Counted from the first letter of the stretch, positions 5,210 to 19,662 are shown. The stretch is 64,000 nt of DNA from an uncultured Lachnospiraceae bacterium (GCA_900314085.1 OMTX01000023.1:62001-126000), one strand, 5' to 3'. Notes: a model not told the origin generated them from the letters alone. Numbers and translations: made by a program.

Positions 5210-5632
5210 TCAGAGGGAAACGATGATTTTGTCTTTGACCGAATCAGGCAGGTCGCCTGCATTCTTTGAAACCGAAAGAAGGAAGTCCGTTTCAAACTTG
5301 TCGGAAAGCTTCGTCAGCTTGTCAATTGCATCATCAAGGCCTTCCGTTGTATCAATGAATGCAATGGTCAGGAAGCTGTCCAGGTAGATTTTCTCGATGT
5401 CACGGTTGCTTGAAATAATGCCGGCCAGGAAGCCTAAAAACTCGCCGGTAGTATTCATGTCGAAGTCTTCCATATTGATGAGACGGACCTTGGAATCAAG
5501 CTCGAACATATGCTGATTGTTCTTGTCGATGAAAATCAGGCTGCCGTTCGACTTCTTGACATCTGCAGAAACCCGGTCGAGAAGCTGTCTGGTTTTTCCC
5601 TTTCCTTTTTCTCCTGCAATAATCTCTACCAT
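5210..5632 (-). CDS. Small P-loop protein of unknown function
   Basis: I do not recognise a named family. The 140-residue protein begins with a beta strand and a Walker A sequence GEKGKGKT (about residues 7-14), followed by FIDKNNQHMFEL and a run of alternating beta and alpha elements including IEKIYLDSFL (about 80-89), which could be the Walker B strand. It looks like a minimal P-loop NTPase fold without other domains. Start choice is firm, with GGAGG 8 bases before the ATG. It stands alone: a promoter (5707-5735) precedes it and a terminator follows it. Similar short proteins are sometimes labelled 'twitching motility PilT', but nothing here supports a role in pili. Confidence 0.8.
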   Translation of the reverse strand: MVEIIAGEKGKGKTRQLLDRVSADVKKSNGSLIFIDKNNQHMFELDSKVRLINMEDFDMNTTGEFLGFLAGIISSNRDIEKIYLDSFLTIAFIDTTEGLDDAIDKLTKLSDKFETDFLLSVSKNAGDLPDSVKDKIIVSL

Positions 5633-5750: not shown

Positions 5751-6797
5751 TTATCCCTGACAATAATCTCCCCGGCTCACCACCACCTGATAGCCTGTGG
5801 AGGCAATCCGCATCTCCATACAATTACGGCATTCGGCAGCTTCGTCGCCGGTACAGATTTTTCCGTCATAGAGCAGGTATTTGTCACGGACACCTCTCGG
5901 AGACAGGTTTGGCATGACGACATTGGCACCGGCCAGAATGCCCTTCTCCCGCCCACGGGGATCAATCGTCCCGAGAGCTGTTGTCGCCGGGAGCAGGCAG
6001 CGGGGAAAAAGAAGCCGCAGAATGCCGAGAAGATGCAGGGTGTCTGTCAGTGTCCCGTCCGGCTCATGGGCAAAGGGCGTTCCCCCGGCATGGATGAAGG
6101 GGCCGATGCCGATCATGTGGGGAGTCAGGCTCTGCAGGAAACGAAGGTCTGCGATGATATTTTCGGCCGTCTGGCCGGGAGATCCCACCATAAAGCCGGC
6201 TCCCACCTGGTAGCCGATTTCCTTCAGGTCATAGAGACACCTTTTCCTGTTTTCTCCCGAAAGGGCCGGCGGATGCAGCTTGACGTAGTGGACAGGATCT
6301 GCGGTTTCTTCCCGGAGGAGGTAGCGGTCAGCGCCGGCATCAAAGTAGGCTTCATATTCCTCCCTGGTTTTTTCGCCGATGGATAATGTGACTGCGCAGT
6401 CCGGATGAGCCTCCTTGATGGCTGAAACCAGATGACAGATGTCCGTGCAGGAATAGGTCAGATCTTCTCCGCTCTGCAGAACGAATGTGCGAAAGCCCAG
6501 CGCATACCCCTGGTTGCAGCAGGCAAGGATTTCGTCTGCAGAAAGCCGGTACCGGCTCACGCCGGAGGCAGCCGCCCGGATTCCGCAGTAGTAGCAGTCA
6601 TTCCTGCAGTAATTTGAAAACTCGATGAGCCCCCGCAGATAGACAGCTTTGTCGTAGTGGCGCTCGCGAACGGCTCGCGCACGGGCATAGAGCAGCTCCT
6701 CCTCTTTTTCTGTCAGCGATGTCAGGAGGGCATAAAGGTCTTCGTCCGGCAGATTCTGCTCCGCTGCTAATTTTTCGATACGATCAATATTTGTCAT
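5751..6797 (-). CDS. hydE: [FeFe] hydrogenase maturation radical SAM enzyme HydE
   Basis: HydE is a radical SAM enzyme that acts in building the two-iron subsite of the [FeFe] hydrogenase H-cluster, normally on the Fe(CO)2CN-cysteine unit made by HydG. The 348-residue protein has the SAM-cluster motif CRNDCYYC (Cys64, Cys68, Cys71) after the family's EFSNY lead-in. It also keeps the C-terminal second-cluster motif CX7CX2C (ICTGDEAAECRNC), which is present in only some HydE proteins. GEDLTYS, MVGSPGQT and MPNLSPRGVRDKY are further family blocks. It overlaps the end of hydF by 14 bases and is the last gene of the cluster. HydG is not encoded in the window. Confidence 0.93.
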   Translation of the reverse strand: MTNIDRIEKLAAEQNLPDEDLYALLTSLTEKEEELLYARARAVRERHYDKAVYLRGLIEFSNYCRNDCYYCGIRAAASGVSRYRLSADEILACCNQGYALGFRTFVLQSGEDLTYSCTDICHLVSAIKEAHPDCAVTLSIGEKTREEYEAYFDAGADRYLLREETADPVHYVKLHPPALSGENRKRCLYDLKEIGYQVGAGFMVGSPGQTAENIIADLRFLQSLTPHMIGIGPFIHAGGTPFAHEPDGTLTDTLHLLGILRLLFPRCLLPATTALGTIDPRGREKGILAGANVVMPNLSPRGVRDKYLLYDGKICTGDEAAECRNCMEMRIASTGYQVVVSRGDYCQG

Positions 6798-8076
6798 TTG
6801 AAGAAAGAAGGTCTGTTCGCCCGATGGCCGTCAGGCTTCGCTGTAAAATGCCGTTCATGTAGGCAATCAGAATGCCGTAATTGGTGAAGGGAATGCCCTG
6901 GTCCTCGGCCTGCCGCCGGCGGAAACGGACTTCGCGCTCGTTCAGCATGCAGCCGCCGCAGTGGATGACCATATGATAAGGGGACAGGTCCTCCGGGAAA
7001 GAAAAACCGCTCGTCGTTTCAATTTCAAAGGATTTCTGCGTGTACTTTTTGAGCCAGTTCGGGATTTTTACCGTACCGATATCGTCGCACTGCCGGTGGT
7101 GGGTACAACCCTCGGAAATAAGCACCCGGTCGCCGTCCTGAAGGCTCTCGGCAGCATAAACTCCCCGGGCTGCCGTATCGAGAATCCCTTTGTAGCGGGC
7201 CATCAGGATGGAGAAGGAGGCCAGGGGGATGTCCTCAGGGACGACCTTGGACACGTGTTCGAAGGCCTGGGAATCCGTGATTACCATGTGGATCGGCTTG
7301 CCGGACTTCAGCAGGAAGGACAATGTGTGTTCCAGATCCTCCGGCTGGCAGCAGATGGGCTCAGCGTGGTGGTCCAGGATTTCGTGAATCATCATCTGTT
7401 CGGGCAGTATCAGGCGCCCTTTGGGAGCGGACGTATCCTGAGGGATGACGAGGACGAAAAGGTCGTGCTCGTCTGCCAGGCCGTCCAAAAGTCCCTTCGA
7501 TTCCATCGTCGCCTTGCCCAGACGGCCAATCAGGCTCTTCAGTTCATAGATGTGATAACCTGTTTTGGCGCTTACCCGTATTTCTCCGTATTCCGCATGG
7601 GCGTTGTATTTCGCAATCACAGCGGCGTTTTCGTCTTGTCCGTTGATCTCCGGATTTTTTACGGCAACGGCATCTTCTGAGAGATCTGCCTTATTATAAG
7701 CAACGACGTAGGGCAGCTTCTTCTCCCGGAAAATATGAATCAGGGCTTCGTCATTCGGCCGCAGGCCGGCCTCGCCATCAACGACAAGAACGGCAATATC
7801 TACGCGGTTCAAAATCTCCTTTGTCTTTTTTACCCGTTTTTCCCCGAGCTCGCCAACATCGTCGATGCCCGGCGTGTCAATGACGACGACCGGACCGATC
7901 GGCGGAATTTCCATGGCCTTCTTCACGGGATCCGTTGTCGTGCCCGGCGTCCCGGAAACGACGGAAAGTTCCTGTTCAGTGACTGCGTTGACGACCGAAG
8001 ATTTGCCTGCATTCCGGATTCCGAAGAAACCGATATGCACCCGCTCCGACGACGGCGCCTCATCCATCATACCCAT
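6784..8076 (-). CDS. hydF: [FeFe] hydrogenase maturation GTPase HydF
   Basis: HydF is the scaffold that receives the immature two-iron subsite and delivers it to apo-hydrogenase. The 430-residue protein has a G domain (Walker A FFGIRNAGKSS near residues 18-28; DTPGIDD switch II; NKADL), a dimerisation domain and a C-terminal cluster domain. The cluster ligands are visible as CTHHRQCDD followed by HCGGC, the family's CxH...HCxxC pattern. AAAGGAG lies 6 bases before the ATG. A 99-base gap separates it from the NifK-like gene upstream and hydE overlaps its end. All catalytic and ligand motifs are intact, so it should be functional. Confidence 0.95.
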   Translation of the reverse strand: MGMMDEAPSSERVHIGFFGIRNAGKSSVVNAVTEQELSVVSGTPGTTTDPVKKAMEIPPIGPVVVIDTPGIDDVGELGEKRVKKTKEILNRVDIAVLVVDGEAGLRPNDEALIHIFREKKLPYVVAYNKADLSEDAVAVKNPEINGQDENAAVIAKYNAHAEYGEIRVSAKTGYHIYELKSLIGRLGKATMESKGLLDGLADEHDLFVLVIPQDTSAPKGRLILPEQMMIHEILDHHAEPICCQPEDLEHTLSFLLKSGKPIHMVITDSQAFEHVSKVVPEDIPLASFSILMARYKGILDTAARGVYAAESLQDGDRVLISEGCTHHRQCDDIGTVKIPNWLKKYTQKSFEIETTSGFSFPEDLSPYHMVIHCGGCMLNEREVRFRRRQAEDQGIPFTNYGILIAYMNGILQRSLTAIGRTDLLSSNDKY

Positions 8077-8175: not shown

Positions 8176-9414
8176 TTAAATGTCGAAATAATTGATGTAG
8201 TGTCCCTGATACTGCCGGCCAGACATGGCAAGGACGGGTTCCGGAACGAAACGGACAGTATCCGGCAGAAGCAGGCCATACATAGGATCCGCATAAACCG
8301 TAATCTGTGCTTTCGGATATCTTTCAAAGATTTCCTTTAAGGCGGAAAGATAGCCTTCTTCCCCGCAGAAATATTTTCCGTTTGCGGCAAGCAAAGCCCT
8401 TCCGGCTTCAAAGGGGCACAAAACAAGCGTCTTGTCTGCCTCCCGATTGAAGGCCGCAAGGGAGGAGGCGAGCACTGCTTCACCAATGTAGACTGCGATT
8501 TTCAATGGGGAAAACCTGTCCGCGTCCTGCCCTGGCAAAATAGGATTCCTTTGTTTCCCCATCCTGCCGTCAGGCGAACAGTTTTCAAAGAACGGAGAGG
8601 CGTCAGCATAGATTTTTTCCCCGCTTAATCCGGCTGCCGCCGCATCTTTCAGGGCTTCTTCCACCGCATCTGCTGCGTCCGGAGAAACCGGACAGCCAAT
8701 CACATAGGGGGTTCCGTAAATTCTTTTCAGATATTCTGCCAAAGGCAGGGCGGTTTCGGAAAGGACCAGGTTGACTGCCGCATCACCGGTTTTCCCGATA
8801 TTTGCCGTCTTCTCTCCCATCGCCCAGACGGCATTGACAGAAAAACCGCAGCCTTTCAGCAGGGAAATCAGATCATACGCTGTATCGCGGTGGCTGAAGC
8901 TCAGCGGCGTCAGTCCCAGCAGATTGATTGAATCGTCTGCGGCCAGTGTCAGGCGTCTTTGATCCGGCAGCATTTTTTTCGCATAGGAAAGGAAAGCCTG
9001 CCGGATTCCGGTGACATAGTCGTGCATCCCGTTTGAGAGAACATAGAAAGTTGGAATCCCGCTCTCCCGCTCGATGATGCGGCAGATTCCTGTGAAGTCC
9101 GTTCCGTTCAAAAAAGGCACCGGGGAATTACAGATGGCAATGAAGGCCGGCGCGGGGGAAATGCCGTCTGCTGCTTCGAGAATGTCAGCGATGAATTTTC
9201 TGTCATTGCCCAGGACCGCATCCCTCATATGTAGCCCGGAGATAAAGATGTTTGACTCCGTCTCGTACCAGCGCAGCTCGTCGTGGGTATTGTAGGTGGA
9301 ATTGCAGCCGGAGGGATCGTGGATGACCACCATTCCGCCAAGTTCATAGAGGGCGGAGGCGATGCCGGAGACGTCCCCTGCGTAGACCGGCAGCAGGCGG
9401 TAGCTTTCTTTCAT
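8176..9414 (-). CDS. Nitrogenase component 1-like protein, NifK-type, second copy
   Basis: The start is ATG at 9414, overlapping the previous stop as ATGA with a GGGAGGGG site; a longer frame reaching to 9627 lies inside the upstream gene. The 412-residue product is a clear paralogue of the NifK-like protein at 16357-17475: both start with about 35 residues ending in a strand and Cys37 (DPSGC here, DAGGC there), share 'EP/EL-RW', a DAV-G-DR block and a PVP..GTD loop. Cys37 matches the second P-cluster Cys of NifK (Cys95 in Azotobacter). The third ligand position is Pro98, with Cys95 three residues earlier. The protein is far shorter than true NifK (about 520). With the NifD-like partner just upstream it could hold one [4Fe-4S] at the interface. 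Function unknown. Confidence 0.8.
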   Translation of the reverse strand: MKESYRLLPVYAGDVSGIASALYELGGMVVIHDPSGCNSTYNTHDELRWYETESNIFISGLHMRDAVLGNDRKFIADILEAADGISPAPAFIAICNSPVPFLNGTDFTGICRIIERESGIPTFYVLSNGMHDYVTGIRQAFLSYAKKMLPDQRRLTLAADDSINLLGLTPLSFSHRDTAYDLISLLKGCGFSVNAVWAMGEKTANIGKTGDAAVNLVLSETALPLAEYLKRIYGTPYVIGCPVSPDAADAVEEALKDAAAAGLSGEKIYADASPFFENCSPDGRMGKQRNPILPGQDADRFSPLKIAVYIGEAVLASSLAAFNREADKTLVLCPFEAGRALLAANGKYFCGEEGYLSALKEIFERYPKAQITVYADPMYGLLLPDTVRFVPEPVLAMSGRQYQGHYINYFDI

Positions 9415-10961
9415 GATGCCCCTCCCTTCGCACGGCCAGAATGTGCTATAGGCTCCTTTTCTTCGGTCGGAAAAAGCCTCCGGTACTGCTCCGTTTTCTC
9501 CGGGAAGTCTTCCACAAGCGATGGCCAGCCCAGCCCCTTCTTCTGGACGATTTCTTCCGGATTTTTCGGCTTTTTTACGGCAGCAATCATGGCGGCACAG
9601 AGCCTTTGCAGGCCGTCGTATCCCCAATTCCCGTCATTTTCAATCCAGTTGACGAAATAGGGGGTATCGGCAAAGAATGCAGCTTTGGGGCCCAGAGCCA
9701 GAACATTTTCTCTTTCCGGCCGATCCAGATTTTCCTGTTTTCGAACAAGTGTACTATTCGTGGATTGAAGGAGGAGGTCCGGATACTTTTCCTGCAGCCA
9801 GAGAAAGTCCTCATGCTCTTCCGGAGAGATACTGTCCAGGTAAACACGGGTAACCCGAAAGCCTTCTTGCAGAAGGCGGCGGGCAAAGGACAGGGGGCGG
9901 GAAAAGGCCAGGTAATCAAGTTCGACATCCCGCCCTCCCACGGTTTCCCGGGCAGCGGCAAAAGCCTGTTCGGTCTTCTCTTTTTCAGAGGAAAGAAAGG
10001 CGGTAATGTCAAAGGCGCGTGCTGACTTTTCATTTGACTGCGAGACGGACGGCGGAAGTTTTTTTGCTGTTTGACCGGATTTCTGCAGGTCTCCACCCAT
10101 TCCACAGATCCCCAGGGCCTCCTGTAAAGACAAAAGAGCCGCGTCAATTTCGGCATCGCCGGCCGTCGGCGGCAGATAGAGTTCCATTCGCCCGTTCTTT
10201 TCGGCGGCAGCCTTCAGCCCGTAAACAGACAGAGCCGACCGTGTGATATAGAGCCCGGCATTCCCCATGGAAAGATAATCTTCAAAGGTTTTGCAGTCCT
10301 GGATCTGGCGGATGGTAAAGCCTGCGACGGCAAGCACCCTGGAAATATCGGCCGATGCAGGAAGGCGGAGGTTGTCACCGAGTACCGAAATCATATTATT
10401 CTCAAAATGAGATGCGGTCAGCAGATCCATCATGGATTTCCGCTGCTTCTGTTCGGGCGTCAGGGAAACCTTCTGCATAATCGGGTCCATAAAGCAGGGG
10501 ACGAAAGCAATGTCCGGAAAGCGGTTACCGAGGGTGTCATAGATGTAGCGAAAATCTGCTCCTGTCTGGTGGTGCATGCAGACAAGAAAGAGTTCGACAG
10601 CCTTGGGACGGACCGGAAGCTTTTCAATGACATCGGCGACGCCTTCAATTGTCACTTCTTCCAGTCGCCCGTTGACGACTTCGTTTTCATCGGGCATTAC
10701 AGAGGAAATGCGGCTCAACGCGCCCATCTCCGCTGCTGTCAGAATGACTCCCCGCAGGCAGTTGTCCGAGCAGACATAAATCTGCTGTGTCTCCGGAAGG
10801 AGCATTCCGGTGTGGACGATATTCCAGTTCTCATGAACCGGACAGTTGTACTCGAGGCGCCAGGGAAAGAGGGGGCGTTCCTTCGCGTCACCGATGCGCA
10901 CGACGGCTGCCGTTTTGGAATCGTACCGATATTCACTTGTCCCGCCAACCCGTGTCAGCAT
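9411..10961 (-). CDS. Nitrogenase component 1-like protein, NifD-type, second copy
   Basis: The 516-residue protein has the nitrogenase component-1 layout by eye. Three cysteines sit where NifD holds its P-cluster: Cys40 (EYNCPVH), Cys68 (CSDNCLRG) and Cys128 (LVCMHHQTGADF, six residues before the conserved Gly). Cys64 is extra. The C-terminal block ending in W(I)ENDGNWGYDGLQRL matches the 'GYxGL' end of the other NifD-like protein in this cluster. No counterpart of the cofactor ligands Cys275 and His442 of NifD is apparent, so a FeMo-co-type site is unlikely. A low-complexity stretch near residues 300-330 may be a linker. It overlaps its NifK-like partner by 4 bases, which suggests a heterodimer. 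Related scaffolds (NifEN) and reductases (BchNB) use the same architecture. Confidence 0.78.
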   Translation of the reverse strand: MLTRVGGTSEYRYDSKTAAVVRIGDAKERPLFPWRLEYNCPVHENWNIVHTGMLLPETQQIYVCSDNCLRGVILTAAEMGALSRISSVMPDENEVVNGRLEEVTIEGVADVIEKLPVRPKAVELFLVCMHHQTGADFRYIYDTLGNRFPDIAFVPCFMDPIMQKVSLTPEQKQRKSMMDLLTASHFENNMISVLGDNLRLPASADISRVLAVAGFTIRQIQDCKTFEDYLSMGNAGLYITRSALSVYGLKAAAEKNGRMELYLPPTAGDAEIDAALLSLQEALGICGMGGDLQKSGQTAKKLPPSVSQSNEKSARAFDITAFLSSEKEKTEQAFAAARETVGGRDVELDYLAFSRPLSFARRLLQEGFRVTRVYLDSISPEEHEDFLWLQEKYPDLLLQSTNSTLVRKQENLDRPERENVLALGPKAAFFADTPYFVNWIENDGNWGYDGLQRLCAAMIAAVKKPKNPEEIVQKKGLGWPSLVEDFPEKTEQYRRLFPTEEKEPIAHSGRAKGGAS

Positions 10962-11051
10962 AGTTTTTCCACTCCGCTTCGATCAGAAGCATCCCCTGAA
11001 ACGGCAAAACACACTTTTGTATGAAAAACGCTTGCCAGTAATCTGTCTGCA

Positions 11052-11306
11052 TCACTCCGACGTGATGTTCGAATAGGCCGTTTTTGCGCTGACGCCGGGA
11101 ATCTGTCCCAGTTTGCCGGAAAGCCCGCTGATGAAAGGCTGGGGGGCATCAACTGCCAGGCTGATTAGGTTGATATTCCGTGCCTTGTAGGGAATGCCCA
11201 TGCGGCCGATGATATAGTCGCGGGCCGCATGCAGAAGCTCGTTCACCTGCTCCACGGCATCCGCATTTTCAATCACGATTGCAATTACAGCTACTCTTGT
11301 CTCCAT
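11052..11306 (-). CDS. TM1266-family iron-only hydrogenase system regulator
   Basis: This 84-residue protein matches the TM1266 family (putative iron-only hydrogenase system regulator), a ferredoxin-like fold related to the C-terminal ligand domain of NikR/ACT proteins. It starts with METRVAVIAIVIEN, then a helix, then YIIGRMGIPYKARNINLISL, and ends in LSGKLGQIPGVSAKTAYS, the recognisable family signature. It has no DNA-binding domain of its own. An AGGAG site lies 6 bases before the ATG. A TTGACA sequence (about 11356-11361 on the minus strand) in the 124-base gap upstream could be part of an internal promoter, but its -10 partner is poor. The family is usually found near hydE/F/G genes; here it sits between the hyp genes and the second D/K-like pair. 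Confidence 0.88.
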   Translation of the reverse strand: METRVAVIAIVIENADAVEQVNELLHAARDYIIGRMGIPYKARNINLISLAVDAPQPFISGLSGKLGQIPGVSAKTAYSNITSE

Positions 11307-11430
11307 GAAAAACTCCTATTTTCCGTATCATCGAAAAATTTTTCTGTTGAAAAACTCCATGTCAAAAACAAAAAGCGCGTTTTTTTAAGGAGTAAATTTT
11401 CAATTCTTTCCCACGTATTCGCTTCCCGCA

Positions 11431-12441
11431 TCAGCAGATCCGCGGCAGCAGCTCGTTCCCCGGTTCCGGCAGGATGGTCTGTGCTCCGATTTCCGTCGTC
11501 ATGATGACCAAGCCCTTGTTCTCTTCCGTGACATGGCCAATGACAGCAGCGCCGCTCGTATATACCTGCCCTTTCAAAACGCCAAGGAGGTCAGACGTAT
11601 GTTCGTGGGGACAGAACATCACGAGGCGGCCTTCGCATGCCAGGTAAAGGGGCTCAAGCCCGAGCATGGATGTCACGCCCCGGACGGCAGGATCAACGGG
11701 AATGGCTTCTGCTGAAAGGTGAATGCCGACATTTGATTCCGCGGCAATTTCATAGAGGACAGTGCCTACCCCACCACGGGTGGCGTCCCGGATGACGTGA
11801 AGTCCCGGTACTGCCTTCAGAGCTGCCTCTACCGGTTTCCACAGGGGAGCGCAGTCTGATGTGACGTCAGCATCGATTCCGTAGTCATCCCGGGCAAGAA
11901 GAATCGTGCAGCCGTGGCGGCCGATGTCACCCGTCACGATAATATCATCGAAAGGCTCTGCCAGAGCGCCGGAAGTATGTACATCCGGCAGCAGTTCGCC
12001 GACACCGGTAGTTGTAATGAAGACGCCGCCGCACTGTCCTTTTCCGGCCACTTTTGTGTCGCCGGCCACGAGATGCACGCCGGCTTCGTCCGCCGTCTTT
12101 GCCATAGCGGAAGCGATTTTGTCAAGGTCTGCCACCGGAAACCCTTCTTCGATGACAAAGGCACACGTCATATAGAGAGGACGGGCTCCCATGCAGGAGA
12201 GGTCGTTTACGGTGCCGCAGATAGAGAGCTTGCCAATGTTTCCGCCCGGGAAAAACTGCGGGGAAACGATGAAGCCGTCCGTTGTCATCGCAATTTTCCC
12301 ATTTGGCGCCGGCAGGACGGATGCGTCGTCTGCCGTGAAATACGGATTCTCGAAGTATTTTTTGAAAATACCGGAGATCAGGGCGGATGTCTGTTTCCCG
12401 CCCGCCCCATGGGCCATGGTTATCGTGTCACTATTCTTCAT
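11431..12441 (-). CDS. hypE: Hydrogenase maturation protein HypE
   Basis: HypE takes the carbamoyl group from HypF on its C-terminal Cys and dehydrates it with ATP to a thiocyanate, the source of the cyanide ligands. The 336-residue protein shows the AIR-synthase-like fold: MAHGAGG near the N-terminus, TADDASVLP, GGNIGKLSICGTVNDL, GDTKVAGKG and DATRGGVGT. It ends with the diagnostic LLPRIC, whose last residue is the essential Cys. The gene follows hypD after 106 bases. An intact HypE argues that cyanide ligands are really made. Confidence 0.97.
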   Translation of the reverse strand: MKNSDTITMAHGAGGKQTSALISGIFKKYFENPYFTADDASVLPAPNGKIAMTTDGFIVSPQFFPGGNIGKLSICGTVNDLSCMGARPLYMTCAFVIEEGFPVADLDKIASAMAKTADEAGVHLVAGDTKVAGKGQCGGVFITTTGVGELLPDVHTSGALAEPFDDIIVTGDIGRHGCTILLARDDYGIDADVTSDCAPLWKPVEAALKAVPGLHVIRDATRGGVGTVLYEIAAESNVGIHLSAEAIPVDPAVRGVTSMLGLEPLYLACEGRLVMFCPHEHTSDLLGVLKGQVYTSGAAVIGHVTEENKGLVIMTTEIGAQTILPEPGNELLPRIC

Positions 12442-12547
12442 CAGATGAATCCTTTCACACGAATAGAAATGATGTTCTGCATGTCAAAAAATGTTTCTTC
12501 CCCCCATATACCGGACTTTGCCTGAAAACAGGAATTCCCCGTGCGCA

Positions 12548-13603
12548 TCATATTCCTCCGCGCTGATTTCCATAGAGATACCAGGCAGAGCAGGCACCCT
12601 CTGACGACACCATACAGGCACCGACCGGGTGTTCGGGGGTACAGGCTTTTCCGAAAAGGGGGCAGGCAGTGGGCAGGATCCGTCCCCGCAGGACCTCTCC
12701 ACAGTGGCAGGCGGGATTGCCGCGCCCTTCCATCGGTGGCACAGAGTACTTCTTCCGCGCGTCATAGGAAGCGTATTCCTCCCGAAGGCAGAGTCCGGAG
12801 CCGGAAATCATGCCGATTCCCCGCCACTCGCTGTCACAGGGCGTCATGACTTTATGAATAATATTTACGGCTTCCGGACTGCCCTCCTGCCGGACCACCC
12901 GCGGATAGCAGTTGACAAAGAAGGGCTTCCCCTTTTTGAAATTTGTTACGGCCACTGCCAGCGCTGTTAAGAGCTCTCCGGCAGTAAATCCCGCACAGAC
13001 GCCACTGACACCTTCTCCCACCAGTTGCTCACAGATTGCCGTTCCGGTAATCGCATGGACATGACCGGGATAGAGAAAGAGATCTGTCGAGCCCTTCATG
13101 GCCTCGTATGCGCCAGGCATGGTCTTGTTTGCAGTCAGCAGGGAAAAGTTGGAAAGTCCGGCTTCCCGGGCCGCCAAAACGGCCAGGCAGTTGGCCGGCG
13201 TTGTTGTCTCAAAGCCGACGGAGAGAAAGACCACCTGCTCCTCCTGATGCTGTGCCGCATAGGTTTCCGCATCAAGGGGCGAATAGACGACTTTCACCTG
13301 AGCGCCTTTTCCCCGGGCCGTCTGCAGGGAGTCGGCGCTGCCAGGCACCCGCACGAGGTCGCCGAAAGTGCAGATGGTGCAGCCCTTTTCGAGAGCGAGA
13401 TATATGGCTTCGTCAATGAAGCCGACCGGTGTCACGCAGACGGGACATCCCGGTCCGCTGATGAGTTCAATCGTTTCCGGCAGCACATTGCGGATGCCCT
13501 GGCGGAAAATTTCGTGGGTGTGAGTCCCGCACACCTCCATGATGCGGCAGTGTGCCCCGTCATAGTTTTGAAGAATTTCACGCGCACGTTCGATGGAGCT
13601 CAT
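12548..13603 (-). CDS. hypD: Hydrogenase maturation protein HypD
   Basis: HypD, an iron-sulfur protein, is the platform with HypC on which the Fe(CN)2CO unit is assembled. The 351-residue protein has the characteristic motifs MEVCGTHTHEIFRQGI (about residues 23-38), GPGCPVCVTP (about 50-59), GFETTTP, the NYVR-like NCYPRVV, and the C-terminal Cys-rich part (GLCLREEY, NPACHCGEVLRG, CPLFGKACTPEHPVGACMVSSEGAC) that binds the [4Fe-4S] cluster. The start ATG overlaps the hypC stop as ATGA. Nothing is missing compared with the family. Confidence 0.97.
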   Translation of the reverse strand: MSSIERAREILQNYDGAHCRIMEVCGTHTHEIFRQGIRNVLPETIELISGPGCPVCVTPVGFIDEAIYLALEKGCTICTFGDLVRVPGSADSLQTARGKGAQVKVVYSPLDAETYAAQHQEEQVVFLSVGFETTTPANCLAVLAAREAGLSNFSLLTANKTMPGAYEAMKGSTDLFLYPGHVHAITGTAICEQLVGEGVSGVCAGFTAGELLTALAVAVTNFKKGKPFFVNCYPRVVRQEGSPEAVNIIHKVMTPCDSEWRGIGMISGSGLCLREEYASYDARKKYSVPPMEGRGNPACHCGEVLRGRILPTACPLFGKACTPEHPVGACMVSSEGACSAWYLYGNQRGGI

Positions 13604-13809
13604 TGCAGTGCCTCCAGCAGCTGATCGGTTTCCTCTTCATCGTCATCCGTGATCTTTGCAATCGCCGTTCCGGCGTGCACCATGACATAGTCTCCCGGCG
13701 TCAGGTCATTTAAAAGAGCTGCGGAAACCGTTCGTTTCGCGCCACCCGCGTCAACTATGCAGGTGTCCTTGCTGATACTCACTACTTTGGCAGAAAGTCC
13801 TACACACAT
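13600..13809 (-). CDS. hypC: Hydrogenase maturation chaperone HypC
   Basis: HypC is a small chaperone that holds the Fe unit with HypD and delivers it to the large subunit of [NiFe] hydrogenase. This 69-residue copy begins MCVGLSAKV with the essential Cys2, and has the OB-fold ending GDYVMVHAGTAIAKI that is typical for the family. The acidic tail (DDDEEETDQ) is ordinary. It overlaps hypD by 4 bases and follows hypF by 49 bases, with an AAGGATGAAG ribosome site. No hydrogenase large subunit lies in the window, so the client of this HypC is an open question. Confidence 0.96.
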   Translation of the reverse strand: MCVGLSAKVVSISKDTCIVDAGGAKRTVSAALLNDLTPGDYVMVHAGTAIAKITDDDEEETDQLLEALQ

Positions 13810-13858
13810 TTCTTCTTCATCCTTTCACTGAAAGCGGATTTAAAAAAATCCATCCTGT

Positions 13859-16360
13859 TCATTGAATTATTAATTTGCCCCTTTGGAGCGCGTTCATAGC
13901 ATATATCGCCTGCCCCAGACAGATGCCGCCGTCATTGGGTGGCAGCAGGCGGTGACGGAGGACGGTAAAGCCCTCGCGTTCGAGACCGCCTTCCACAAGG
14001 GAAAGCAGCAGACGGTTTTGGAAGACACCGCCTGTCAGCGCTGTGACAGATACGCCGGTCTCCTGCCGCAGGGAAACCGCTTTGTTCACGATCATTGCCG
14101 AAAGATTTTTGTGGAACAAATATGCCAGGCGGTCAGTATCTGTCCTGCCGGCCAATCTCTTTTCCACAAGCCAGGCAAAGAGACGATCAGTCGGAAGGCA
14201 TGTCTTTTCCTGCCGGATGGCAGGCGCCTTTTCTTTCGAGGCTTTCTCGTTCGAATCCTGTATAGCATCTGCCCCGAAAGAAAAAGTCTCAAAAGCAGCC
14301 GGACACAGCTCGTCGGGCAGGGGCTTTCCGGAAATAGCATCCTGTCCCCGCAGAGCTGCATACATGAGGGCGGTCGCTGCCTCTCCTTCAAAGGTGGATT
14401 CCTGCCGTATTCCCAGCAGGGCAGACACGGCATCGAAAAGACGGCCGGCACTGGTCGAGGCCACCGCATTCATCCGGTGCGCAAAGAGCATCCGCTGGGC
14501 TTTGACGGTCTTTTCATTGGCGAGATTCAGCTGCAATGCTATGTCTTCTGCCCTCTCTCCGCAAAGGGAAAATAGCATGGAAACAGCAATCCGCCAGCCT
14601 TCCCTGGCGGAGGCATCCCCACCGATCTGCAGGAAGGGTTTGATGGAGGACAGACGTTCAAAGCCGTCGAAGTCGCAGAGCAGGAACTCACCGCCCCAGA
14701 TGGTCCGGTCTGTCCCGTACCCGGTTCCGTCAAAGGAAATTCCGATCACCGGATCCGAAAAATCGTTCTCTCCCATGCAGGAAAGGACATGGGCGTAATG
14801 GTGCTGAACCCGGATCAGAGGAATCCCATGCTCATCAGCCAGTTTTTCTGCCAGAATACCGGAATTATACCTGGGATGCAGATCCGCGCAGATAATGTCC
14901 GGCTTCATCTCCAGCAGGCTTTCCGTTTTTTCGATAGCATCCTCCAAGGCGTGCACTGTCCGAATGTCGGCAAGGTCACCGACATAGGCAGACGGATAAA
15001 AATTCTGATCGACGGCCAGGCAGAAGGTATTCTTGAGTTCGCCGCCGATTCCCAAAGCCCTTCCATGGAAGGAATCGCTCATGATATAGGGAAGCGGCGC
15101 ATAGCCCCGGGACCGACGGATCATGTAAGGACTGCCCTTATAGAAATCCATGACGGAGTCGTCCGTCCGGATACGGATGTCACGGTTGTTTGTCAGAATA
15201 GCGTCGCAGAAGCCGCTGATCTCGTCCAGAGCCTCCGCATCCGTAGAAGCAATCGGGGCACCGGAGGCATTGCCGCTCGTCATCACAAGGACGTCTGACA
15301 TATCCGTGACCTCATCCGGATAGGAGAATAATAAAAGCTGCACCGGCGCGTACGGAAGCATAATGCCCACCGTCGGATTGTCCGGAGCGACGCTTTCCGC
15401 GATTTTCCCGCCTGCCCTCTTTGCGAGCAGCAGGATCGGCTTCTGCGGGCCTGTCAGAATCTTCTCCTGGATACTGTCAAATACACATTCTCTTGCTGCG
15501 GTTCCCAAGTCTTTTGCCATGACGGCAAAGGGCTTCATCGGGCGCTTCTTGAGCTGACGCAGCCTTTTTACCGCTTCTCCATTCGCTGCATCACAGGCCA
15601 GGTGAAAACCTCCGATGCCTTTGACGGCCACAATGCCGCCGCCGGAGAGAATTTTCCTCGCATGGGTGATCGCCGCCCCTCCCCGCAGAGACGCTTCCTT
15701 TCCCAGAATATATACTTCCGGGCCGCAAACCTTGCAGCAGACCGGCTGGGCGTCAAAGCGGCGGGAGTTCCTGTCATAATACTCTTTCTCACATTCCGGG
15801 CACATGGGAAAGGCCTTCATGGAGGTCCGTTCCCGGTCATAGGGCAGGCCTTCCAGAATCGAAAAACGCGGGCCGCAGAGGGTACAGTTGATGAAGGGGT
15901 GCAGATAGCGCCGGTTTTTCGCATCAAACAGTTCTTCACGACAGGTATCACAAATAGCGATGTCCGGTGAAATGAAAATCTCCCCCCGCTCCTTTTTGCT
16001 CTCGACAATATGAAAACCGGTGAAAAAGGGTTGGCTAAATTCTGTCAGGTCATGTGTTTCCGGAAGAGTACCGGCTTCCTTTCGGGAAAGTTCTTCTACC
16101 GGCAGGTCATTTGCCGGCAGATCCTGCACATCAGTCTTCAGAATGACGGCCCGCTCCGGGGCTTCGTCTGTAACCAGCCGAATGAAGTCCGTGACAGCAC
16201 TGTTCTGCCCCTCTGCGAGGATCTCCACATAGGAGCCCCGGTTTGAAACCTGCCCACTGATTCCGCAGGCTTTGGCATGGCGGACGACCGTGGGCCGAAA
16301 ACCGACTCCCTGAACGATGCCATAGACACGGATTCGTTTTCTTACAAGCGCTTCCCTCAT
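13859..16360 (-). CDS. hypF: Carbamoyltransferase HypF
   Basis: HypF converts carbamoyl phosphate to carbamoyl-AMP and transfers the carbamoyl group to HypE. The 833-residue protein has the full domain order: N-terminal acylphosphatase (VYGIVQGVGFRPTVVRHA, about 12-29), two zinc fingers of the CX2CX18CX2C type (about 137-220; CDTC/CTLC and CPEC/CKVC), a YrdC-like domain (GGGIVAVKGIGGFHLACDA; MTSGNASGAPI) and a Kae1-like carbamoyltransferase domain (VQHHYAHVLSCM; GISFDGTGYGTD; TGGVFQNRLL). It overlaps the NifK-like gene by 4 bases (ATGA), so it is translationally linked to the nitrogenase-like genes. That link is not usual for hypF. Confidence 0.97.
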   Translation of the reverse strand: MREALVRKRIRVYGIVQGVGFRPTVVRHAKACGISGQVSNRGSYVEILAEGQNSAVTDFIRLVTDEAPERAVILKTDVQDLPANDLPVEELSRKEAGTLPETHDLTEFSQPFFTGFHIVESKKERGEIFISPDIAICDTCREELFDAKNRRYLHPFINCTLCGPRFSILEGLPYDRERTSMKAFPMCPECEKEYYDRNSRRFDAQPVCCKVCGPEVYILGKEASLRGGAAITHARKILSGGGIVAVKGIGGFHLACDAANGEAVKRLRQLKKRPMKPFAVMAKDLGTAARECVFDSIQEKILTGPQKPILLLAKRAGGKIAESVAPDNPTVGIMLPYAPVQLLLFSYPDEVTDMSDVLVMTSGNASGAPIASTDAEALDEISGFCDAILTNNRDIRIRTDDSVMDFYKGSPYMIRRSRGYAPLPYIMSDSFHGRALGIGGELKNTFCLAVDQNFYPSAYVGDLADIRTVHALEDAIEKTESLLEMKPDIICADLHPRYNSGILAEKLADEHGIPLIRVQHHYAHVLSCMGENDFSDPVIGISFDGTGYGTDRTIWGGEFLLCDFDGFERLSSIKPFLQIGGDASAREGWRIAVSMLFSLCGERAEDIALQLNLANEKTVKAQRMLFAHRMNAVASTSAGRLFDAVSALLGIRQESTFEGEAATALMYAALRGQDAISGKPLPDELCPAAFETFSFGADAIQDSNEKASKEKAPAIRQEKTCLPTDRLFAWLVEKRLAGRTDTDRLAYLFHKNLSAMIVNKAVSLRQETGVSVTALTGGVFQNRLLLSLVEGGLEREGFTVLRHRLLPPNDGGICLGQAIYAMNALQRGKLIIQ

Positions 16361-17475
16361 GCCCGCCGCTTTCCCGAAAGAGCAAATTCCGGAATATGAA
16401 TGAAAGTGCCAGAGTAATCCGGAATCAGCTTCTTCTGTACCTCATCAGCCATAATAATTTCCGATTTCTGTTCTGTCACCAGCCGGGTGAAGTCGTCCTC
16501 TTCCCGAAGCCGGAAAACGTTCTCATTTTTGCTTGCAAACCAGGATGCTATCGTGACGTCTGCTGTCGGCAGATACTGAAGAATTGCCTTTCCAAGGGAC
16601 TGGGCGAAAACCGACGAGTTGACAATCAGTATGCTTTGCGCTCCGCCAGGCAGGTTTTCCGCCTCTGCAGTGTTTCCGGTGTCCGGTTGGCCCGAATCAG
16701 GGAACAGAATCTTCAGATAATCATCCGCCCCAGGGAAATCAACCCGGTAAGGCGTTTTGAACTTCTCCTGCAGAAAGCTGCAGGCAGCGACGCCATCCTC
16801 GGAAACCGCAATATTCAGCACGTTTGCAGGTGCGTTTCTGTAAGCGGAGAAATCAGCATCCGCCCCGTAAAATATTATTTTTGAAAAGCCTTCCCTCCGC
16901 AGGGCAGCTGAAATCCGCTTCCTGTCAGCATCATATTCAGGCAGATCCAAAGGCGACACCCCGAAAAGGCCAACACGCTTTTCGTCGACGGGAATAGCAG
17001 CAAACAGGTTCCTTTCAGCCAACTCCTGAAGCAGGGACAAATAGGCCAGCGACTCTCCCCGGTCGAAGGTATGCATGCCGTCAGTCGGAATCGCAAGCAC
17101 AGGAAGAGGCGGCAGGGAAAGCTCTGAAAGTTTCTGATCAAGCATTCGCTTCAAAGCGGAAAAATCCGTCCCGATGACTGCCGGGACAGGCGTTCCGACA
17201 AAGGCAACGAAATTTGCTTTCAATTTGCGGACACAGTCAACCGTTTTTTTGATGAGCAGGCGGTCCCGCCCCATCACGGCATCCATGTCCCGGAGGCCGG
17301 CAGAGAATACAGCCGATCGTTCCGATGACCAGCGCGGCTCGTCAAAACCGCAGATATTGCCGGCGCAGCCGCCGGCATCAATAATGACGATAATTCCGCC
17401 AAGAGAATAAAGAACGGAGACTGCCCCGGACTGATCCGGAGCAAAGGGAGTCAGCGCCTTACGAAGCCCTTTCAT
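16357..17475 (-). CDS. Nitrogenase component 1-like protein, NifK-type, first copy
   Basis: This 372-residue protein is a paralogue of the NifK-like protein at 8176-9414 and is shorter than any standard NifK. Cys37 (DAGGC) aligns with the second P-cluster Cys of NifK; Cys42 is extra; the third ligand position is Pro in the loop TPVPAVIGTD. A NSSVFA block and a final ADEVQKKLIP keep the Rossmann-like repeats of the component-1 fold. The N-terminal segment that would hold the first P-cluster Cys is absent. The gene overlaps the NifD-like gene before it by 17 bases and hypF after it by 4 bases. The likely partner is the NifD-like protein and the likely electron donor is the NifH-type protein; the substrate is unknown. 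Confidence 0.78.
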   Translation of the reverse strand: MKGLRKALTPFAPDQSGAVSVLYSLGGIIVIIDAGGCAGNICGFDEPRWSSERSAVFSAGLRDMDAVMGRDRLLIKKTVDCVRKLKANFVAFVGTPVPAVIGTDFSALKRMLDQKLSELSLPPLPVLAIPTDGMHTFDRGESLAYLSLLQELAERNLFAAIPVDEKRVGLFGVSPLDLPEYDADRKRISAALRREGFSKIIFYGADADFSAYRNAPANVLNIAVSEDGVAACSFLQEKFKTPYRVDFPGADDYLKILFPDSGQPDTGNTAEAENLPGGAQSILIVNSSVFAQSLGKAILQYLPTADVTIASWFASKNENVFRLREEDDFTRLVTEQKSEIIMADEVQKKLIPDYSGTFIHIPEFALSGKRRA

Positions 17476-18847
17476 GGCGTTCCTCCCCTCTGACAGCCAA
17501 AGCGATGGCTTCCACGAGCTTTTTCAGTCCCATGTAGCCAAAGGGCTGTTCATCGCTATTCCAATAGACATGGATGTCATCCGGATGATACCAGGCTGCA
17601 TCCTTGCCGAGCGTTACCAGCCGCTTCTTTCGGCAAATTGGTTCAGCTTCACAGGAAGCAGATTCTTCCTGTTTTCCTGTCCCGAAGTCATAATAGATCA
17701 TCGTGGGCTCCATATTGGAATAGACACGTGTCTCCGGCGACAGCCCGGCAAGCGCTTTCAGATAATATTCATCCTCCCTCGCGGGATTCCGGAAGATTTC
17801 CAGAATATCAAATCCTGCCTCGCAAAACGTCAGGGCAAGTTCGAAGGAGTTGGCATTTATCGTTTCACCTATGGAAAAAACAAGGTCAGGATAAGCTTTT
17901 TTCAGAGCAGCAAGTCCATCTTCCGCTGCTGACTTTCCCTTAGATGAATCCCATTTCACGCCCAATGCGCCTGCAAGAGCCTCATACTGCTTTTCAATCC
18001 GATCCGGTCCGTAGAAACGGGAAAGCTCTATATAGGGAATGGAGAGGCGGTCTGCCAGGTCGTCTGCCGCTGCCCTGGCTTCGGAATTCAATACCAGATT
18101 GAAATTGGCCTCCCCCATTCTGCAGAACTCAAGAATATCCGGGCAGGTGGAGATTTCCCGGATGTGTTTCACCCCGATATCCTGGAGCAGGGAAAAAAGC
18201 TCGCTCTCAGCATCCACCGGGGCGAAGTATCCGAGCAGATTTACGGAAGCTCCCCGCTTTTTCTGCTGCGGAAGAAGGGAATAAAGAGACTGCCGTATCT
18301 GTACCATTGGCGGCTTCCTTCCTTCCCGTGTCAGCGCGTACATATAGCAGGGACGAACAGGAATGCCGGCAGCCGTTTCTGCCGCCCGGCATACCCTCTC
18401 CATATCCGTTCCCAGAAGGGCATCCACGCAGGTGATGCAGACCATTACCAGGGAAGGCCTTTCCACGCAGGAATCCACGATTTCCCTGACTGCTTCCGGA
18501 ATCTTTTTTAAGTGTCTGGCCGTCACCAGATCCGTTTCGCTGATCTCCAGGTAGAAAAAACGGTCCTCATAGCCCCTGATCGCAGTGATTTCCGATGTGT
18601 TTCGTCCGCAGCAGCCCGGAGAGACAATCAGCATGACTGATCCCGGGATGGCAAGTCCAGCCCTTTTCACGCCAAAGCCTTCAGCTCCGGGAGAATTAAA
18701 AGCCAGAGCGGCCGGGGAATTGTAGATCAGGTGGCGCTCTGTCCGATAGATATCCGGCAGGCGCTCAGGTCCAAGTTCCGCCAGGTCGGCAACCGTATGG
18801 CTTTCAGGAAGCATGCCGGTATTCACCCGTTTCGAATCGGCGCGCAT
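17459..18847 (-). CDS. Nitrogenase component 1-like protein, NifD-type, first copy
   Basis: I start at ATG 18847 (462 residues, TGATG overlap with the gene before); an in-frame GTG at 18856 is possible. The N-terminal block NSPAALAFNSPGAEGFG matches the start of the NifD core, but Ala stands where NifD has its first P-cluster Cys. The second position is a Cys pair (VSPGCCGR, Cys79-Cys80) and the third is ITCVDALLGTD (Cys140, with Cys137 three residues before). In the region of FeMo-co ligand Cys275 the aligned sequence reads NLVLNSEA, so that Cys is replaced; near His442 the alignment has a His one place off, which I do not count as a ligand. The C-terminus has the usual GYMGL block. Probable heterodimer with the next gene product. 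Confidence 0.82.
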   Translation of the reverse strand: MRADSKRVNTGMLPESHTVADLAELGPERLPDIYRTERHLIYNSPAALAFNSPGAEGFGVKRAGLAIPGSVMLIVSPGCCGRNTSEITAIRGYEDRFFYLEISETDLVTARHLKKIPEAVREIVDSCVERPSLVMVCITCVDALLGTDMERVCRAAETAAGIPVRPCYMYALTREGRKPPMVQIRQSLYSLLPQQKKRGASVNLLGYFAPVDAESELFSLLQDIGVKHIREISTCPDILEFCRMGEANFNLVLNSEARAAADDLADRLSIPYIELSRFYGPDRIEKQYEALAGALGVKWDSSKGKSAAEDGLAALKKAYPDLVFSIGETINANSFELALTFCEAGFDILEIFRNPAREDEYYLKALAGLSPETRVYSNMEPTMIYYDFGTGKQEESASCEAEPICRKKRLVTLGKDAAWYHPDDIHVYWNSDEQPFGYMGLKKLVEAIALAVRGEERHERAS

Positions 18848-19662
18848 CACAGGCACCCGCAGTCGGAAAGCTTTCCGGGATGAATAGCAGACTCTTCAAA
18901 TTCTCCCGCTGCCTCCTCAGAAAGCAGCCGGTCGGCAAGATCAAAGAAATTCCGGGCAAGAGGACTTTCCGGAGCCAGTTCCACAATTGTCTTTCCGGCA
19001 TCTTCCGCCGTCTGAAAAGCAGGATCTCTCGGAATATCCGCCACGATTGAAAGTCTGTTTTTTTCCGCAAAGGCCTCGACTTTCTCCCTTTCATCCTCCA
19101 CATTCCGCCGGTTCAAAATAATACCTTCTACTGACGCATAGCCCCTGTCCTTGAAATTTTCAACGGCTGAATTGATGTTTCCGGCTGCATAGAGGGCCAT
19201 CTTTTCTCCGCTGGTAACGATCAAAACCCGATTGGCAAAGCCCTCACGGATCGGCGCGGCAAAACCTCCGCAGACCACATCGCCAAGAACATCAAAGAGG
19301 ACGACGTCCGGCTGCTCCTTCTCCATCAGCTCCATTTCATCCAAAAGGTTGAAAGTAGAAATAATTCCGCGGCCGGCGCAGCCCAGCCCCGGTGTGGGGC
19401 CGCCGGTCTCTATGCAGAGGACATTGCCAAAGCCCCGGGCGGAAATCTCATCGAGGGAAGCAGGATCCGCATCGTGTTCCCTGAGATAGTTCATGATAGG
19501 CTCAATGGGCTTCCCGGACAGGAGATTTCCGGTGGAATCCGCTTTGGGATCGCAGCCAATCTGAATGACTTTTTTCCCCCGCATGGCAAAAGCCGCCGAC
19601 AGGTTCGAAGTGATGGTTGACTTGCCAATGCCGCCCTTGCCGTAGATTGCAATTTTGATCAT
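18847..19662 (-). CDS. NifH-type nitrogenase reductase-like ATPase
   Basis: The 271-residue protein is a complete NifH-family iron protein. It has Walker [10 protein letters not shown] (residues 8-16), switch I DPKADST (38-44), both cluster ligands (Cys94 in GLGCAGRG and Cys130 in DVVCGGFA) and the switch II DVLGD (123-127). Arg97 matches the Arg ADP-ribosylated in some nitrogenases. As a dimer it should carry one [4Fe-4S] and pass electrons to a component-1 partner with ATP hydrolysis. The C-terminus is unusual, ending DCGCL with Cys268 and Cys270. I start at ATG 19662, which has TTGGAG 8 bases upstream; the longer frame to 19719 runs through a terminator-like hairpin. It is the first gene of the cluster. 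Confidence 0.92.

Follow-up and report, generated by a model that had tools for sequence, protein, structure and literature searches.

The window (the whole 64,000-nucleotide stretch of DNA analyzed, from an uncultured Lachnospiraceae bacterium) contains a 13.9-kb minus-strand gene cluster (19662–5751) in the order nifH–D1–K1–hypF–hypC–hypD–hypE–D2–K2–hydF–hydE, which holds two nitrogenase D/K-like pairs, and we propose, at a probability of about 0.62, that HypCDEF and two NifH-driven nitrogenase-like complexes replace HydG by making the CO/CN-ligated iron unit for HydE/HydF. The observations behind this proposal are the gene content and order of the cluster, the intact motifs of its products, its co-occurrence with the loss of HydG, and its independence of [NiFe]-hydrogenase; we infer all of the chemistry of the route and the order of its steps. 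The D/K-like pairs, for which the original prediction gave no function, probably take part in this replacement route, because the cluster carries genes for cyanide and hydrogenase assembly (hypFCDE, hydF, and hydE) and every carrier that was checked lacks HydG. The genes of the cluster are as follows.

18847..19662, minus strand: nifH-like ATP-dependent reductase, 271 aa (PF00142, 284.6 bits)
17459..18847, minus strand: D1, component-1 alpha-like subunit, 462 aa from ATG, or 465 aa from GTG at 18856 (PF00148, 93.9 bits)
16357..17475, minus strand: K1, component-1 beta-like subunit, 372 aa (PF00148, 49.1 bits)
13859..16360, minus strand: hypF, carbamoyltransferase of the cyanide pathway, 833 aa (TIGR00143, 702.5 bits; cut-off 466)
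13600..13809, minus strand: hypC, 69 aa (TIGR00074, 62.1 bits; cut-off 48)
12548..13603, minus strand: hypD, Fe(CN)2CO scaffold, 351 aa (TIGR00075, 360.8 bits)
11431..12441, minus strand: hypE, thiocyanate-forming dehydratase, 336 aa (TIGR02124, 396.6 bits)
9411..10961, minus strand: D2, divergent component-1 alpha-like subunit, 516 aa (PF00148, 17.9 bits; cut-off 28.6)
8176..9414, minus strand: K2, component-1 beta-like subunit, 412 aa (PF00148, 89.9 bits)
6784..8076, minus strand: hydF, H-cluster [2Fe] scaffold GTPase, 430 aa (TIGR03918, 504.1 bits; cut-off 325.6)
5751..6797, minus strand: hydE, radical-SAM H-cluster maturase, 348 aa (TIGR03956, 537.7 bits; cut-off 254.6)

The four hyp genes thus lie between D1–K1 and D2–K2, K2 is followed by hydF and hydE, and all of these genes share one strand. 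The four component-1-like ORFs had been predicted at this place, and their coordinates are confirmed, including the lengths of K1 and K2; the nifH gene, the hypFCDE genes between the pairs, the downstream hydF and hydE, the D–K fusions, and the absence of HydG are additions of the present analysis. A family profile search, which the original prediction had named as a check, places D1, K1, and K2 above the gathering cut-off of PF00148 (nitrogenase component-1; 28.6 bits), but not D2, which in the tree groups with D1 and NifDE. In profile searches against the NCBIfam nitrogenase, NifEN, BchNB, and Cfb models, no cluster protein reached a cut-off: 22.7 bits vs 653.6 for the nifD equivalog; 63.0 bits (D1) and 42.0 bits (K2) vs 505.1 for NifEN (TIGR01283); at best 46.4 bits (BchB) vs 490 for the DPOR/COR equivalogs (BchNB, BchYZ); and 299.9 bits vs 402 for the CfbC equivalog with the NifH-like protein, the cluster also encoding separate K subunits, unlike the single-D CfbCD. 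The NifH and CfbC profiles tie on this NifH-like protein (18847–19662) at about 299 bits, under the nifH, cfbC, and bchL cut-offs. The view that neither pair is a nitrogenase therefore stands, since no equivalog cut-off is reached and the FeMo-co ligand position is lost (in D1, the region of NifD Cys275 reads NLVLNSEA, as originally noted). Both a nitrogenase and a FeMo-co scaffold are ruled out by the family cut-offs together with the gene context.

Structure prediction, likewise suggested at the outset, was obtained for D1–K1 from a natural fusion (L116; 798 residues, 103 sequences), for which the model comprises two component-1 domains and is confident (pLDDT 89.0, pTM 0.90). Among solved structures, the K half best matches BchB (Z 28, rmsd 3.2 Å, 331 residues), and the D half matches VnfD/AnfD (Z 16.3–16.4, 411 residues). 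The best Foldseek match of the fusion model was a fused NifEN (9i0g, E 4e-25), with an rmsd of about 26–27 Å across both halves, so how the two halves sit relative to each other in the model is unproven. In the component-1 tree, D1, K1, D2, and K2 are each monophyletic (ultrafast bootstrap 99–100, aLRT 93–100) with NifD/E and NifK/N outside, and modules linked to ABC transporters group with D2 among the D proteins and, weakly, with K1 among the K proteins. Among such modules, a family member (G117; L031:3898-12623) has the order hydE–nifH–D2–K2–three FecCD/siderophore-type ABC transporter genes–hydF, without hypD and without HydG, and at L027, L028, and L029 a FecCD-type ABC transporter comes after the NifH–D–K module, some of these genomes lacking HydE/HydG. 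By this tree, D1/K1 and D2/K2 are old paralogues rather than recent copies. The expectation that the pairs have diverged into different roles agrees with their separate clades (93–100) and with their different cysteine sets (eight in D1/K1, four in D2/K2).

Cysteine conservation was scored over about 50 homologues per protein (D1 48, K1 49, K2 43). The invariant cysteines of D1 are C82, C83, C140, C143, C170, and C238 (48 homologues; numbering from GTG), and those of K1 are C37 and C42 (49 homologues); the residues first listed for this pair, D1 Cys79/80/137/140 and K1 Cys37, were correct, the former being C82/83/140/143 when counted from the GTG start three codons earlier. D1 Cys143 aligns onto NifE Cys124 (phmmer). 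The eight invariant D1/K1 cysteines could provide the ligands of both an interface cluster and one additional metal site. In D2, C64 (98%), C68 (100%), C128 (100%), and C223 (94%) are conserved, and K2 C37 is invariant (43 homologues). Cys68, Cys128, and K2 Cys37, as originally listed, are therefore retained as candidate ligands, but D2 Cys40 was discarded, being a cysteine in 21% of homologues, and the unlisted Cys64 is conserved instead. A single NifEN/BchNB-like interface cluster is accordingly still plausible for D2/K2, with D2 C64/C68/C128 and K2 C37 as the 3+1 set expected of such a cluster, rather than with Cys40.

The catalytic motifs of the other cluster proteins are intact. NifH1 has the P-loop GKGGIGKST and both cluster cysteines in 53/53 homologues, and NifH2, encoded by the second nifH of some loci, has the P-loop and cluster cysteines in 25–26 of 26; the MCxG start of HypC is present in all 38 cluster copies, CGTHT and GPGCPVC of HypD in 52/52, the C-terminal PRxC of HypE in 31/31, and CxxxCxxC of HydE in 31/31. 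Overall, the catalytic Cys and P-loop motifs of HypC, HypD, HypE, and NifH are found in 95–100% of copies.

A profile scan over 84,980 species gave 429 D1 relatives, of which the best 80 were read; named carriers include Blautia, Roseburia faecis, Anaerobutyricum hallii, and Coriobacteriia. Among these best 80 of 429, 63 loci cover 9 kb or more downstream of D1, and all 63 encode K1 and hypC/D/E; hypF is present in 62, D2 in 60, and K2 in 55, a second nifH lies ahead of D2 in 35, and hydF falls inside the fetched flank at 22. Many of these loci include hydF or hydE. The complete gene order was found again in L034, L032/L033, L073, and L074, and variants include nifH–D1–hydE–hydF–K1 (L126, L129) and a hydE–hydF unit divergent from nifH (L088, L107, L112, L119, L131); in Blautia, HydE is unlinked from the cluster. 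Natural D1–K1 fusions occur at 22 of the 80 loci (e.g., L116, L085, L038), with NifH2–D2 fusions at L094, L134, and L140 and a D2–K2 fusion at L072, so D1 and K1, D2 and K2, and NifH2 and D2 are partners; these fusions would also be handy for expressing the complexes or solving their structures. Actinomycetota D1 proteins fall in two separate places among those of Bacillota in the tree (metagenome-bin labels being imperfect), which suggests inter-phylum transfer.

The genome that contains the window (88.6% complete) encodes a group B1 [FeFe]-hydrogenase and no HydG over cut-off, and HydG is also absent from its sister G083 (98% complete). In a family sample of 120 genomes, 66 encode HydE and 58 HydG, each scored over its cut-off. 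Of the 66 HydE-encoding genomes, the 56 with HydG include none with D1 (scored as a relative at ≥50% identity), and six of the ten without HydG carry the D1 cluster (Fisher p = 2.3e-6, a value that ignores shared ancestry, the genomes not being phylogenetically independent). These six (the present genome, G083, G069, G071, G025, and G091) all encode HydE, lack HydG, and have an [FeFe]-hydrogenase domain. HydG was likewise over cut-off in 0/50 further cluster-bearing genomes drawn from the best 80 of 429, single-contig Blautia chromosomes included. Nearly all of these 50 have a 50–85 bit match to the HydG model in a frame of ~350–390 aa, as HydE gives, and on this cross-match, a proxy rather than a direct HydE search, HydE appears to be kept in nearly all of them.

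Four other family genomes with HydE and without HydG follow different patterns: in G117 and G048, a D2-like NifHDK module comes with a FecCD-type ABC transporter and hypD is lacking, and G011 and G086 lack both the D1–hyp part and a D2-like module, so that HypCDEF cannot be a strict requirement. Furthermore, in 43 of the 120 family genomes a HydA domain passes the Pfam cut-off but both HydE and HydG fall short of theirs, and three such examples (L155–L157) retain intact H-cluster motifs; since HydA can occur without the known maturases, HydG loss alone is weaker evidence. A ThiH-like protein is unlikely to stand in for HydG, as the matches concerned (~190 bits) also occur in HydE-less genomes and are missing from the present genome (G000), G069, and G117.

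These patterns bear on an alternative that we consider unlikely, although it retains some weight, in which the cluster makes another Fe–CN/CO cofactor for a client enzyme encoded elsewhere, HydE and HydF having been recruited and HydG lost for an unrelated reason. The unlinked HydE of several genomes would fit such a cofactor, as would the many family genomes with HydA and without HydE/HydG, where HydA maturation may not need the set, and the invariant cysteines of D1, which exceed the needs of a simple scaffold. However, the locus has no conserved candidate client gene, hydF and hydE belong to H-cluster-specific families and score over curated cut-offs, and the tie to HydG loss is strong.

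HypF and HypE generate cyanide from carbamoyl phosphate, and HypC and HypD are carriers of Fe(CN)2CO in [NiFe]-hydrogenase maturation, whereas HydE and HydF are H-cluster maturases. In the standard route to the H-cluster, the product of HydG is an Fe(Cys)(CN)(CO)2 unit, which passes to HydE and is dimerised there for HydF (PMC12752695). In the replacement of HydG that we favor, HypF and HypE would supply cyanide from carbamoyl phosphate, HypC and HypD would assemble an Fe-cyano-carbonyl unit, and NifH with D1K1, and NifH or NifH2 with D2K2, would convert this unit for HydE in ATP-driven steps, leaving HydE and HydF to complete the diiron subsite. D1K1, with its eight invariant cysteines, would most likely perform a low-potential reduction that yields a second CO, or a CN/CO exchange on iron, and D2K2, which adjoins hydF/hydE and is at times fused to NifH, would most likely act in hand-over or as a reducing scaffold; the assignment of D1K1 and D2K2 to individual steps is a guess. 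The Hyp product is Fe(CN)2CO and the H-cluster needs Fe(CN)(CO)2, and no enzyme is known to convert one into the other; this mismatch and the unlinked HydE of Blautia count against the replacement route. Whether there is, more broadly, a second, HydG-independent H-cluster route based on Hyp proteins and two nitrogenase-like reductases, joining the Nif, Hyd, and Hyp metallocofactor assembly systems and common in both the human gut and the rumen, we regard as an even chance.

Nitrogenases reduce cyanide to methylamine, which lends some support to a more improbable alternative: that the nitrogenase-like complexes make the dithiomethylamine bridge of the H-cluster, or only reduce HydE/HydF, with HypCDEF giving cyanide and CO being scavenged. 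D2K2 is the pair nearest to hydF/hydE, and the hydE–nifH–D2–K2–ABC–hydF arrangement of G117 is without any hyp gene. It has also been reported that HydF matured by HydE on its own activates HydA at about 1%, from stray CO and CN (PMC9431212). Against this, the bridge is already accounted for by HydF and the glycine-cleavage H-protein (PMC12752695), and two pairs with differing cysteine sets suggest more than one reductive step.

The present genome and G069 each have, besides the hypD of the cluster, a second hypD in a separate set, and hypD of this second type lies beside Ech [NiFe]-hydrogenase genes in G069, G011, G082, G038, and G067. In the present genome, an Ech-type [NiFe]-hydrogenase operon and a second hypCDE set are on different contigs (G000:C135, L043:11144-16616, and G000:C30, L054). 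Cluster-type HypD proteins are 64–79% identical to the copy in the window and Ech-type proteins 41–47%, and the two types lie on separate sides of the HypD tree (99/99; two Ech rows are long-branched). A [NiFe] large subunit is absent from G083, G025, G071, and G091 (97–99% complete), where the sole hyp set is that of the cluster, and from 42 of the 50 other cluster-bearing genomes (from the best 80 of 429); because 4/6 family carriers and 42/50 others are without it, in most carriers the cluster hyp set has no [NiFe]-hydrogenase to serve. An additional [NiFe]-hydrogenase maturation operon of the ordinary kind, with the nitrogenase-like genes for metal supply, is thus very improbable and was discarded on co-occurrence: hypCDEF are bona fide and the present genome does have Ech genes, but most carriers have no large subunit and the hyp genes linked to Ech form a lineage of their own.

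The cluster shares features with several known systems and differs from each of them as follows. It shares with HydEFG maturation hydE and hydF, both over their cut-offs (537.7 and 504.1 bits), and an [FeFe]-hydrogenase domain in the genome, but has hypFCDE and two nitrogenase-like pairs instead of HydG. As in HypABCDEF maturation, HypC, D, E, and F have all catalytic motifs, although the cluster set forms its own clade, occurs in mostly [NiFe]-less genomes, and is tied to nif-like and hyd genes. The component-1 fold, the alignment of D1 Cys143 with NifE Cys124, and a possible role in cofactor assembly recall NifEN, from which the pairs differ in an identity of about 15–20% and the absence of a nifB/nifDK context. 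The K1 domain is closest to BchB of DPOR among solved structures, yet no tetrapyrrole genes accompany the cluster and the sequences are far under the family cut-offs. MarHDK, IsrHDK, and CfbCD, other nitrogenase-like enzymes of Group IV, are also NifH plus D/K-like reductase modules, whereas the cluster is its own lineage with no sulfur-metabolism or F430 genes nearby.

In Coprococcus catus and Dorea longicatena, two linked NifHEN-like copies were reported beside hydrogenase maturation genes, and a role in assembly of an active-site metallocluster was suggested for them (Dos Santos et al., 2012; PMC3464626); these copies are probably the system described here. That report notes the maturation-gene neighborhood in a single sentence; it does not mention HydG, does not split the hyp set from [NiFe] maturation, and contains no co-occurrence test. 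HydG was not found in 5/8 Clostridium acetogens, with the cause only speculated on (PMC9431212), and the open-access literature (subscription papers being outside the search) contained no report linking nitrogenase-like proteins to HydG loss. The H-cluster's CO and CN are generally attributed to HydG, and a natural replacement, if true, would change the view of [FeFe]-hydrogenase assembly, explain genomes with HydE and without HydG, provide a large orphan group of nitrogenase-like enzymes with a function, and point to new chemistry in the form of ATP-driven reduction on iron carbonyl-cyanide complexes. As Blautia and other abundant gut genera are among the carriers, hydrogen metabolism in the gut may rely on the cluster.

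Several further genes were observed in or near these loci. A 140-aa ORF without a Pfam match follows hydE on the same strand (window 5210-5632), and searches found no conserved counterpart of it at other cluster loci. One family member (G050; L057:13518-19901) encodes a genuine-looking nifDKE, with nifD and nifK just under equivalog cut-offs. In Porcincola and the near-identical RUG10675 (L033:1895-3109, L151), hydE is followed by a gene for a DUF362 protein with two ferredoxin-like clusters, which is a possible electron donor.
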